64,000 bases of DNA from Tachypleus tridentatus (lineage: Eukaryota > Arthropoda > Merostomata > Xiphosura > Limulidae): positions 168,309,310-168,373,309 of the forward strand of contig NC_134837.1 in the NCBI RefSeq assembly GCF_004210375.1, read 5' to 3'. This document shows, in pieces, positions 14,387 through 53,440 of the stretch (position 1 is its first letter; every line of letters starts with the position of its first letter). The position numbers and the translations under genes are program-made. The notes under the pieces are model-generated. The model was not told the origin of the DNA. It worked only from the letters and a program-made list of their open reading frames with translations, and did not search any database.

Positions 14387-14784
14387 TTAGCTGTCTGCTG
14401 AACTCAAACACTTCTATTGAGTTTCTGTTGTACTAAATATGAAGGTTAATAAGATGTTGAGTTTTCATCTGCGATTTACCTTCCATTTCTCTTTCAAAGT
14501 AGCCTTAAATCTAACTTTTGGCTTTGTTCTAAAACTTTTACACAGTATTGTATGGTCTATGTTATAGGTAACTGCTTTTCATAACACTGTGCAACAAAAT
14601 TTTTACTTGATTATTTTCTTGTTGCTGAGCAGAAAGTGTTATTTCCCAATTGCTTATGTCTAAAGTAAATGGAAAGACCTATTGTTTCTCCAAATTTTGC
14701 TTTTGTGACCTGGGTAATGAAAATTTCAAATTTATCCATTTTCCAAAACATTCCAGGTAAATTCAGTGTTGAGTAGCTGATAGA

Positions 14785-14872
14785 GAATTTTCTCTAACTT
14801 ACAAGAATTTTCAAGAACTTTCTAGAATGTTGTAGAATTTTCAAGAACCGTTTCGAATTTTCTGGAACTTTC
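14785..14872 (+). promoter_or_regulatory. Extended heat shock element array (HSF-binding pentamers)
   Basis: GAA and TTC alternate exactly every 5 bp. GAA occurs at 14785, 14805, 14815, 14825, 14835, 14845, 14855 and 14865; TTC at 14790, 14810, 14820, 14840, 14860 and 14870. Of 18 successive pentamer slots in one phase, 14 match; the mismatches are 14795, 14800, 14830 (TTG) and 14850 (GTT). nGAAnnTTCn repeats are the binding site of heat shock factor trimers. The array ends 95 bp before the ATG at 14967, as a promoter element would. Function is inference. Confidence 0.75.
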
Positions 14873-14966
14873 CATTGTAATATATGTACAGAATTTCACC
14901 ACTCACCACTTCAGCTTAGTTCTAACTGCCTAAGTGAACACATAGACCTATCTGATTTTATTAAAC

Positions 14967-16003
14967 ATGGCATCAAGAAGCTGCAAGTATTCTCCAGACG
15001 CATTCTGCTATGTATGTGGCCAATTTATCAAGACAAGAGCGGAAACGTACTCTGTGACAGCATCTGCTAAAATGTATGAAGCCTACAAAGTATATTTCGG
15101 CATGTCTGTCGGGGATCAGGACAAACCCTGGGCACCTTATTTTACCTGCGAGCACTGCAAAAAAACTCTAGAAGGTAAGATAAACAATTTTTGCTTGCTT
15201 GAATAGTAAGATTTTATATTATACAGATTTTAGACCTTATAAAATTTAAGTATCTTTCGGCGCACCTCAAAAAGGAATACAACAATGTCATGACCTTGCT
15301 AGAAACCTTGAAGTATGATGAGTATGGCTGGAAGGTTATCGGAGAATTCAAAATGGTGGCATTCCTGATGGGTTTCCGAGGAGGCTTTACCAAGTTTCTC
15401 TGTTATCTTTGCCTTCGGGACAGCGGCGACACCGCAAGGCATTACAACAGGAAGTAGCGGCCACAACGAACCAAGTTCTCTGTGGGGAGACACAATGTTA
15501 AGTGTGAGCCACTAGTGGACCTCAAGAAGGTGTTGTTTCCACCATTGCACATTAAATTGGGTCTTATGAAACATAGTGTCACAATTCTTGATGAGGAATC
15601 TGTAGCCTTCAAGTATCTTCGAGACATTTTCCCTAAGCTGTCTGAGGCAAAGACCAAAGCTGGTTTCTTCGTTGGACCACAGATAAAGAAGATCCTGAAG
15701 TGCACAGAATTCCCCAATAAGCTCAGTAGGAAGGAAACAAAAGCTTTGGACAGCTTTGTCGCTGTGGTTTTGGGCTTCTTGGGCAATCATAAGGCCGAAA
15801 ATGATGTGGAACTGGTTGAGGCTCTCGTGAAGAACTACGGTAAAATGAGCTGCAGGATGTCCCTGATAGTCCATATCCTTGACGCTCATCTCGATAATTT
15901 CAAGGAGAACATGGTAGCAAGACGAGCGCTTCCCCCAATATATACTGGACTTTTAACGCCGCTACCAAGGAGCGTATAACGAAAACATGACGGGGGCTAA
16001 TAC
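14967..16003 (+). pseudogene. Broken gene of a dispersed, element-borne protein family
   Basis: The first part, 14967-15174, encodes MASRSCKYSPDAFCYVCG... to a Cys-rich segment with Cys pairs CYVC and CEHC (zinc-ribbon-like) and ends at a donor, GAAG|GTAAGA. The second part resumes near 15227 (KYLSAHLKKEYNNV... GFRGGFTKFLCYLC) and continues at 15482 (PPLHIKLGLMK, GFFVGPQIKK, LGNHKAEN). I recall this as a multi-copy family of unknown function. Lesions: the middle portion is missing, the two parts do not join in frame across the short apparent intron, TAG at 15455-15457 replaces a codon that is Trp in relatives I remember, a frameshift lies near 15905-15925, and TAA is at 15954-15956 within a still recognisable C-terminus. 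It is not functional. Confidence 0.75.
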
Positions 16004-16496
16004 GTGAAAGTGAATTACATTACAGTTGCAAACCTCGATAAACTACTCACTTCTAAACATTTTTGTATAACTTTAGTATAAATACATGTAAATGTTGATT
16101 CATATGTTGTTTTATTCAGACTTAATGTAAGTGAAAATGTGCAATTTTGCCCTTTTTACTTAGAAAATAGGTTAATTTGTAAATTTCATTATCTAGGTCA
16201 CAAAAACAAATTTGGAAGGGAATAATGGCTATTTTCCGTACTTTTACAACATAAGCAATTAAAACGTAACACATACTATCCAGGAACAAAATTTGTGTTA
16301 CATAGTGTAATCTAAGCCTAGCTTAATTTAGCTGAATTACTGTAATAAACGCATCTAATACATTCGCTTAGCTAACCTGAACTGTTGTAATTGACGCAAC
16401 TAAGATATTATTTTGTTAGCCTGAAGTATTGCAATAAACACATCTAACACATTCACTTAATTATCCCGAACTGTTAAAATGGATACTTCTATTTTT

Positions 16497-17678: not shown

Positions 17679-18153
17679 TCAGTTTATCAATAGCCGTTTC
17701 ATTCTCTATCCGTTTGAATTATAAAGTGATTGAAAAAACAGTATAGCTGAAAGCTTTATCAGGTGAACCTGTACCCTATAACCCTTAGTTCCAGACTAGT
17801 TTATTCTTGTTTATGTGAGATACTACTGTCTAAGACACTTGCAAGGCGTTTGTCACTGATCTTCACAGGTTCACTGGTTTCATGCTTCCACAAAACATTA
17901 AACTTTGCTTACTATGGCAGGGAAACGACTTGCTAAAGTTGTATTTACGAATGATCCTGGTGTCAATCCACTTCTCCATTATCTGTGTGTATGATCAAGT
18001 TCCTTCAAAAAAAGTTGATATAATCTTATCAAAAAGCAATCATATTTTTGTGGAATTAATTTCGCACTCTGTCTCAAACTTCAAATACGATCAAAATGTA
18101 ATTCTGATACATCAGTTCCACATAGACTTTATAATGGCGGTTGTTATTGCCCC

Positions 18154-18432
18154 ACTTGGCCCGGCATGGCCAGGTGTGTTAAGGCGTTCGACTCGTAATC
18201 TGAGGGTCACAGATTCGAATCCCCGTCGCACCAAACATGCTCGCCCTTTCAGCCGTGGGGGCGTTATAATGTGACGATCAATCCCACTATTAGTTGGTAA
18301 AAGAGTAGCCCAAGAGTTGGCGGTGGGTGGTGATGGCTAGCTGCCTTTTCTCAAATCTATAATTTTAAAATTAGGGACAACTAGCGCACATAGCCCTCTA
18401 GTAGCTTTGCGCGAAATTCAACAAAGAAATAA
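18154..18432 (+). repeat. SINE family A copy
   Basis: Full-length plus-strand copy. The head GCCCGGCATGGCCAGGTGTG has anticodon-loop-like CTCGTAA (Thr-CGT), followed by a body and a GCGCGAAATTCAACAAAG tail. Its 3' part is shared with the paralogous segment at 46 kb, where the rest is very degenerate. Confidence 0.88.
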
Positions 18433-18585: not shown

Positions 18586-19831
18586 TCAGGTCATCCGAAA
18601 AGTAATGTCCGAAAATTTATTACAGAAAGTGCATCATCATTTCTGTCTTTGTAGGAGGCTTTAATGACAAAAATATGAAGTAATACATGAATAAAAATGT
18701 TCAGACAAATAAAAGAAACTAACTCAACTCCACTTTTTTAGATCATTAATCAAATAAACCCTTATGAAGATGGATGTGTCTGAGGAACACATTAGGCATA
18801 TAATGCTTTATGGGTTTAAAAAAGGCAATAGTGCGGCAGAAACTACACGAAACATTCAAGGCGTTTATGGTGCGGAGTCTATCAATGACATAAACTGTCG
18901 AAAGTGGTTTCAGAAGTTCAGGTTAGGTGACTATAGCTTAAATGATGCGCCACGTTCAGGTCGTCCTGTTGAATTTAATGATGCCTTACAGCTGGTTGCA
19001 CTTGATGAAGATTGTACTATAACAGTTTACCGTCATCTGCAACAGATTGGAAAGGTGCCAAAATTTGGAAAATGGGTCCCATGTAATTTGATAAAAGCCG
19101 ACCTTAGAGCAAGAGTGGACATTTGCAGTTCTCTGCACTTTCGTGAACGTAACTCACCTTTTTGAACAGGTTAGTGACTGGAAGATAAAAACTTGATATA
19201 TTATAAAAATATTAAGCACCGCAGACAATGGCTCAGTGCAGGTAAACTAGTTAAAGCACAGCCCAAAATGAACCGCCACACTAAGAAAATTTTGTTAAGC
19301 ATCTCGTAGGAGATTGTTGGTGGATCCACCTCGAGTTGCTGCAACTCAATATTACGATTACATCAGACTTGTATTGTCAACAATTAGAGCTCTTGAATAT
19401 TGCACTAAAAGAAAAGAGGCCTGCTTTGATCAATCGTAAAGGTGTTGTGTTACACCAAGATAATGCATGACCCCATACAGCAAGGATCACATCAGCAAAG
19501 ATAGAAAAGCTAGACTGAATAAAACTTTCACATCCTCCTTATTATCCAGACCTTGCCCCATTTGATTCTCATCTATTCCGAAGTTTGCAGAACTATCTTG
19601 ATGAAAAAGAACTTGGACCACATGAAGATGTCAAAACTACTCTCTCTACATTATTTTCCCCCAAACCCCAAGAGTTTTATAGAAATGACATTTAGAAGTT
19701 TGTGAATCATTGGCGGGAAGTAATTAATAATAATTGATCATATATTATTGATTAAACAACATTAAAAGTGTTTGAAATCCTTTCTCTTCTTCTGAATCTA
19801 AAAATCGGATATTACTTAAGGGATGACCTGA
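18586..19831 (+). mobile_element. Mariner DNA transposon, dead, with both ends
   Basis: Left end TCAGGTCATCCGAAAAGTAA; right end (reversed) TCAGGTCATCCCTTAAGTAA. TA follows the right end (19832-19833). The left flank reads CA, presumably a mutated TA. The length of 1246 bp fits mariner. A paralogous segment at ~46.2 kb lacks the element and shows the intact target (see findings). Confidence 0.88.
18764..19735 (+). pseudogene. Mariner transposase pseudogene
   Basis: The N-terminal part (EEHIRHIMLYGFKKGNSAAE..., SGRPVEF) is open from 18764. An internal deletion joins it to VYRHLQQIGKVPKFGKWVP. Broken frames continue with the catalytic blocks VVLHQDNA-stop-PHTA near 19450 (the Arg codon of the usual NARPH is TGA) and YYPDLAPFD near 19540-19570, ending before ~19740. 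A deletion, frameshifts and the nonsense codon make it inactive. Confidence 0.85.
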
Positions 19832-52619: not shown

Positions 52620-53440
52620 TGTTATAACGGTAAATCCGTTATATGTTTATTTTAATGCCTACGTTTGTTTCACTTTGAATCATGTGACGTATATTGTTCA
52701 ATGTATATTACTAAAATCCCGCCTGTTCCCTAAATTTGTAAAAGATTCGCGAGAATAACAATCCTATATATTTGTTTTACTAAAGAGCTAACGTGTATTC
52801 GAATGTTGTTGAACATTCAAGAATCTCGCTTTAATCTATATAAACCGACGCTCCGAGAGACAGTTTTGTATTATTGGTTAGCTACAATCAGTTTACTAAA
52901 AACCTCGAAAGCTATAATTGTGATAAACGCTTATTAATCGGAAAACTACAGAACTTAACCAGGAATGTTTATAGATTTCAGATATGACGAACCGCTCAAC
53001 TAGAAAGAACTAACTTCGGACGCTTAGCAATCTAGGAGAAAATTCGATATCTATCTTCTTCTGTGAAAAGTAAGCTTGTAAAACGCATTAAGCCAGACAA
53101 GAATAGATGGCATTCCTGTTGAGGGTAGTAATTTGCATCTCCTGGACCTGGATCATCGATAAACTATTAACTTCTAAACCAGATAGAAGACTTAAAACTG
53201 CTTGTAGCTTTGTATAACTTTTATATATAAACCAATACTTGTAATAACTGTTGTTATAAATTGTATTGTTGTTTCTATATTAAAATATATTTGTGTTAAT
53301 GAGGAAAATCTTGTTGGCAAATATCATAAATTCAATGGATATTAACTTCTAAATTCAAATCTTAATACCTAATATACGTAACGTAATAAATCGGAGACTC
53401 GTCTGAGATTAACTATAATACAAAACAATGTAGATAATTA
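52620..53440 (+). repeat. LTR-like repeat, copy 5
   Basis: Starts TGTTATAACGGTAAATCC, has TATATAAACC at ~52838 (TATA-like), the block CCTCGAAAGCTATAATTGTG and the end CTGAGATTAACTATAATACA. Confidence 0.6.

Follow-up and report, generated by a model that had tools for sequence, protein, structure and literature searches.

The 64,000-nucleotide stretch of Tachypleus tridentatus DNA analysed here (the window) carries a run of GAA and TTC pentamers that alternate in a single 5-bp phase, close to the start of a transposase-like reading frame. The question raised by this locus is whether the run is a genuine cluster of heat shock elements (HSEs), through which a transposon answers to the heat shock factor (HSF) of its host, or a repeat that happens to read like one.

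The array and its chance expectation

Read in 5-base slots, positions 14785-14872 give GAA, TTC, TAA, TAC, GAA, TTC, GAA, TTC, GAA, TTG, GAA, TTC, GAA, GTT, GAA, TTC, GAA and TTC. The matched slots include perfect runs of 5, 3 and 4, and an HSE, taken as at least three alternating nGAAn units in 5-bp phase, is present. Simulated 64-kb sequences with the composition of the window (n = 180; 60 for each of the Markov orders 1, 2 and 5) reached at most 6/18 slots, against 14/18 in the real array, and the top twelve 18-slot scores listed for the window all overlap 14785-14872. The array is thus far above chance expectation, and the original prediction of its coordinates and phase is borne out. The 'exceptional regularity' claimed for it holds for the 5-bp phase but not for the letters, since four slots do not match. 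At three of them the family majority is itself imperfect (TAC, TTG and TTT there); relative to that majority the window array lacks one 10-base unit. Tandem Repeats Finder reports the same feature as a 10/20-base repeat at 14784-14847. A short second phased stretch of GAA/TTC lies at 52796-52818 (4/6 slots, with one mismatch to the 4-slot pattern).

A host yardstick is provided by the cluster of hsp70 genes on contig C8. In all eight promoters read there, a 4/4-slot element precedes the coding match by about 170-188 bases, with identical HSE letters, so that they count as about one; 2-3 slots were seen at three further genes of the hsp70 family. With 14/18 slots against 4/4, the array is longer than the HSEs of this hsp70 cluster, in line with the claim that it exceeds typical heat shock gene promoters. 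The DNA-binding domain of HSF gives five matches in the genome, one of them complete and without stops.

The transposon and its promoter

The array belongs to a DNA transposon of 1,723 bases (14585-16307) with an internal deletion. Its features are collected in Table 1.

Table 1. Features of the array-bearing transposon (window coordinates)
Feature	Position	Strand	Remarks
Left target site duplication, TAA	14582..14584	.	Same letters as 16308-16310
Left terminal inverted repeat, CACTGTG... (family majority CACTATG)	14585..14746	+	
Phased GAA/TTC heat shock element array	14785..14872	+	14/18 slots matched; in 40/40 copies aligned
TATA box, TATATGTA (family majority TATATATA)	14881..14888	+	
Probable initiator, TCAGCT (family majority TCAGTT)	14911..14916	+	A about 32 bases after TATA start
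Transposase exon 1 (MASRSCKYSPDAFCYVCGQF...)	14967..15174	+	Translation; GT splice donor at 15175
Exon 2 remnant, broken	15257..16015	+	tblastn with family proteins; translation
Right terminal inverted repeat, ends ...CATAGTG	16160..16307	-	Inverted match to left repeat
Right target site duplication, TAA	16308..16310	.	

The ends are defined in several ways: CACTRTGYAACAMAAWTT is matched exactly at both of them, 14619-14746 and 16160-16289 form an inverted match (73% alike over 131 columns), and homology among 40 copies starts at 14581-14585. Where TWA is found on both sides, the two triplets are identical in 18/20 copies; over all pairs the figure is 18/30 (shuffled mean 10.4, p 0.0013). This count took 30 of the 40 copies (six had no right repeat in the fetched DNA and in four no right end was found), and two pairs within it, L016/L020 and L029/L030, have common flanks and are not independent. 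The exon junction is supported by homologue P0156, which reads ...KTLEG and then WYRGEK. With terminal repeats, TWA target duplications and transposase remnants all present, the array is carried by a transposon, as predicted.

The copy in the window is an internally deleted relic with a broken transposase frame: about 220 residues are gone from the start of exon 2, and an in-frame stop and a frameshift follow. Longer family copies, such as L016, measure about 2.5 kb. The exon-2 match begins at homologue residue 221-223 in 8/37 other copies that have such a match and, judged by eye, in the window copy too. The internal deletion of L018, L019, L025, L031, L033, L035, L041 and L042 ends around homologue residue 222, as at window position 15257. 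This apparently common deletion probably marks a non-autonomous lineage that multiplied with promoter and array kept.

Array end (14872), TATA (14881), initiator TCAG (14911) and ATG (14967) follow one another; the distance from array to ATG measures 94 bases, in agreement with the 95 bp announced. When 94-base pieces are drawn at random from the window, 1.65% contain a TATA and initiator at such spacing, and in 30/40 copies the pair lies 26-36 bases apart. Judged by its letters, the region has array, TATA and TCAG spaced like a core promoter, with the array sitting where a promoter would be expected. The right end of the element (15977-16361) has no phased array, its best score being 2/12 slots.

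This asymmetry bears on a first alternative. Plant CACTA elements have subterminal repeats that are bound by their own transposase, and the array could be such a repeat, only resembling HSEs. It is a tandem repeat that adjoins the left terminal repeat, and the majority ends (CACTATG) together with the 3-bp duplication are CACTA-like. Against this, the array is restricted to the promoter end, and the unrelated piggyBac transposase described below would need the same GAANNTTC phase; since unrelated transposases hardly share a binding site, we give this explanation little credence.

Two further repeats were noted in the window: a mariner-like transposase remnant at 18764-19770 (HTH_48, PF17906, in 18764-19162) and a tRNA-derived SINE-like repeat at 18150-18430, of a type that we take to be typical of horseshoe crab genomes. 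ARAGORN finds no tRNA in the 64 kb.

The transposase group

Among the families in the fold listing, the transposase has the fold of RAG1/Transib, an RNase H fold with the order D, D, CxxC, HxxxxH, E. The target site duplication, 3-bp TWA, is unlike the 5 bp of RAG-like and Transib transposons. Pfam gives no match above cut-off for the transposase, a search of solved structures by sequence yielded nothing beyond weak matches to EXO70 (E of 0.1 or worse), and no relatives were confirmed in the viral_contigs and genome_contigs collections. In animals the family is very large, with 2,244 database proteins (best candidates scored); window 14967-16015, P0122 and P0159 are among its representatives. 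Protein relatives also come from sturgeon, lamprey, frog and Octopus. The family thus joins the fold of RAG1/Transib to ends resembling those of CACTA elements and to 3-bp TWA duplications, without a Pfam match above cut-off. One relative, P0230, is annotated in sturgeon as peroxisomal biogenesis factor 7; a stretch of this gene model is 82% identical to relative P0054, and by its sequence it is probably an annotation fusion.

Copies of the family

A search of the genome (2.17 Gb, 205 contigs) with the promoter as query gave 1931 candidates, the best 40 of which were scored. The array is found in all 40 aligned copies, the window included, the query itself having contained the array. The family majority has 20 slots of which 16 are matched (GAA 10/10, TTC 6/10).

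An array-independent sample was drawn by transposase homology: 16 copies from the 93 match rows of the best candidates, namely those matching near the query start and lying outside two diverged groups. Terminal repeat and core promoter are kept in 12/16, and the array is present in 12/12 of these, three of them much reduced. The best runs (matched/slots) are 15/20, 11/16, 11/14, 10/12, 9/14, 7/8, 7/8, 7/8, 6/8, 4/5, 4/4 and 3/3; the short ones belong to L096 (4/5), L101 (4/4) and L100 (3/3, shrunk to 29 bases). For the other four (L091, L094, L095 and L104) the promoter was not found in the DNA read.

In the two diverged transposase subfamilies (8 and 5 copies), the 1.4-1.5 kb that was read contains no array, the best phased scores being 3/8 and 4/14 slots. 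The array therefore belongs to the subfamily of the window and is not fixed across the transposase group. It had been proposed that other copies lacking the array would speak against the prediction: the array is there in 40/40 copies and in 12/12 that keep the promoter, but it is missing from these two subfamilies. L063 was considered as a possible diverged subfamily and rejected. It belongs to the family of the window; its similarity ends shortly before the start site, apparently at another insertion, and it was left out of the array-less count.

Several members of the 8-copy subfamily have uninterrupted frames of 628-629 codons. Sister-subfamily copies L051-L054 (G000:C9:46104772, C5:26137528, C4:11941515 and C7:112417668) have nearly identical upstream DNA, again with no array. 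Taken together, frames and upstream DNA suggest that this sister subfamily may be recently active.

Drift of the array

Across the 40 copies, departures from the majority amount to 5.0% in the array (5.1% for the GAA/TTC letters, 4.9% for the spacers), 6.6% in the left flank and 5.5% between array and ATG. Exon-1 columns reach 15.0%, which is ascribed to deletions and poor alignment there, and were set aside. The expectation that the array would be better conserved than its flanks fails: 5.0% against 5.5-6.6% is drift at the neutral rate, an outcome named beforehand as one that would refute the prediction, and the dispersed copies give no sign that their array is being preserved. Nonetheless, dead copies drift neutrally, and the comparison therefore cannot refute function in an element that was once active.

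These figures also bear on the idea that host genes have taken over dispersed arrays as enhancers responding to heat. Array-bearing copies are many (40/40 of those scored, the best 40 of 1931 candidates), but the decay of the array at the rate of the flanks makes such co-option unlikely.

A different comparison concerns the ten 10-base units of the array: from unit to unit, GAA/TTC columns vary less than spacer columns do (uniform letters 56/60 against 27/40, Fisher p 0.001; p 0.03 when counted as events). The result is only suggestive, as the test is post hoc and the units, being related by duplication, are not independent; it would fit GAA/TTC having been held more constant than the spacers before insertion, in the element's own lineage. 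The array has a periodicity of 10/20/40 bases, and its length differs between copies largely by 10-base steps, from which it follows that slippage made much of it. Slippage accounts for the variation in length, not for the letters or the place.

Long arrays elsewhere in the genome

The perfect 7-slot pattern has 97 + 86 = 183 matches genome-wide (some places matching on both strands), whereas the reversed pattern has 0. By an eye count of the 100 matches listed out of 183, 54 rows read GAATATTCTTGAAGCTTCTAGAATATTCTAGAA or close to it, and the remaining 46, at 32 places, are of the window-family type. Of the places fetched as a check, 8/32 of the window type all belong to the window's family, and 5/54 of the other type all belong to one element.

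That element is a piggyBac transposon. Its five fetched copies (L065-L069, for example G000:C1:55586690) are nearly identical over about 2.2 kb, and L065, the only copy scanned, contains the piggyBac transposase domain DDE_Tnp_1_7 (PF13843, E 8.8e-59). TTAA precedes CACTCCTACG at 5/5 left ends, and ...GGAGTGTTA is found at 4/5 right ends. The array is perfect (7/7 slots) and stands 14 bases before TATATA in four copies and 13 in the fifth, with the ATG 53 bases after the array in 4/5. Within three mismatches it occurs at 272 places genome-wide (control 0). The arrays of the two families have GAA/TTC and phase in common, and most of their spacers differ.

With a pattern chosen to leave out the main spellings of both families (C or G at the second spacer position), 5-slot arrays proved rare: 22 were found, against 6 for the reversed pattern. 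At least four of the 22 lie at 7-slot places (C2:66856381, C4:54235460, C6:137929458 and C7:28107644), and one lies at a piggyBac-type place (C7:18198278).

This independent piggyBac case is the stronger evidence for function, and two of the remaining alternatives can be weighed on it. One holds that the array is a chance 10-base minisatellite reading GAANNTTC, with no regulatory role. The 10/20/40-base periodicity, the length changes largely in 10-base steps and the neutral drift in copies are all in its favour. So are similar arrays in the viral collection, where three contigs (L001, L002 and L003; L001 and L003 have the same sequence there) contain perfect 8-slot GAA/TTC arrays: no HSF is expected in such contigs, so that GAA/TTC arrays can arise without it. 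Yet a random 10-base unit would read this way with a probability of only about 0.003, the array lies just upstream of a TATA box, and a second HSE array with other spacers occupies the same spot in an unrelated transposon. Overall, we regard a chance repeat as quite improbable.

It might also be argued that helically phased A/T tracts (AATTTT per 10 bases) bend the promoter and that GAA/TTC is incidental. The commonest unit, GAATTTTC, does have a short in-phase A/T tract. The alternate units GAACTTTC and GAATGTTG interrupt it, however, and the piggyBac array (spacers TA, TT and GC) has GAA/TTC with fewer such tracts, which leaves this explanation hardly credible.

Proposed role of the array

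We consider it likely that the array is an HSE cluster through which a cut-and-paste transposon, with a transposase of RAG1/Transib fold, has its transposase promoter activated from upstream. That two unrelated transposases are preceded by one motif at one position points to the heat shock factor of the host. Under stress, host HSF would trimerise; its trimers would bind the phased GAA/TTC units, which end a few bases short of the TATA box, bound HSF would drive transcription of the transposase, and the element would move in stressed cells. The heat-responsive promoter is predicted at the level of the family, from sequence, and the same applies to binding by HSF, induction by heat and a presumed benefit to the element.

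A broader proposal is that at least two unrelated cut-and-paste families of horseshoe crabs (RAG1/Transib-fold and piggyBac) independently gained HSF-driven transposase promoters, with arrays longer than that of the hsp70 cluster. Transposons would hence supply nearly all long HSE arrays of the genome, and heat would mobilise, or have mobilised, several families at once. We see even chances for and against it.

Comparison with known systems

Helitrons are rolling-circle elements, and ONSEN is driven by an HSE in its LTR. CACTA (EnSpm) elements typically make a 3-bp target duplication. To our knowledge, stress control of transposons has usually been argued from single cases. Our literature search, made largely outside subscription journals, returned no work with a title or abstract on HSEs in piggyBac promoters or in the transposons of horseshoe crabs.

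With the CACTA elements the present family shares the 3-bp duplication and the CACTA start of the terminal repeats (majority CACTATG on the left, CATAGTG common on the right; the left end of the window copy reads CACTGTG). It differs from them in having the array at one end only and in a transposase that goes unmatched in Pfam above cut-off. The animal TRC elements, which are CACTA-type, are described with a 2-bp target duplication (PMC1636069), and RAGL and Transib with one of 5 bp (PMC7204232). ProtoRAG, the ancestral RAG transposon of lancelet, is described as regulated by YY1 (PMC7481187): it, too, is of the RAG family and has a site for a transcription factor of its host within a terminal region, but the factor is YY1 and not HSF. 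ONSEN is a heat-activated retrotransposon of Arabidopsis (PMC8376061), that is, a plant LTR element, whereas we describe a DNA transposon with a predicted heat response.

The closest parallel is found in Caenorhabditis, where Helitrons have clustered HSEs in many copies and are bound by HSF-1 (PMC6927752); heat induction of Helitron transposase mRNA is cited in the same source. As far as its cited text goes, that study inferred, from the genomes it examined, that high-density HSE clusters (>10 per kb) do not occur outside Helitrons. In the family majority the present array contains about seven perfect three-slot units that overlap one another, a number that might not reach this density cut-off. 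Both cases are DNA transposons with clustered HSEs and many copies; binding by HSF-1 is reported there, and binding by HSF is predicted here. The window's family is not a Helitron: it has inverted repeats at its ends, it duplicates its target, and its transposase has an RNase H fold of RAG1 type. The horseshoe crab case involves two cut-and-paste families.

Summarizing, a single animal genome holds two transposases, unrelated to each other, whose TATA boxes directly follow one and the same host regulatory motif, in arrays longer than that of the hsp70 cluster. The case is of the same kind as the HSE-bearing Helitrons of Caenorhabditis, in other transposon classes and, very probably, another phylum. 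If true, capture of HSF would be a repeatable strategy of DNA transposons and not a peculiarity of Caenorhabditis Helitrons.
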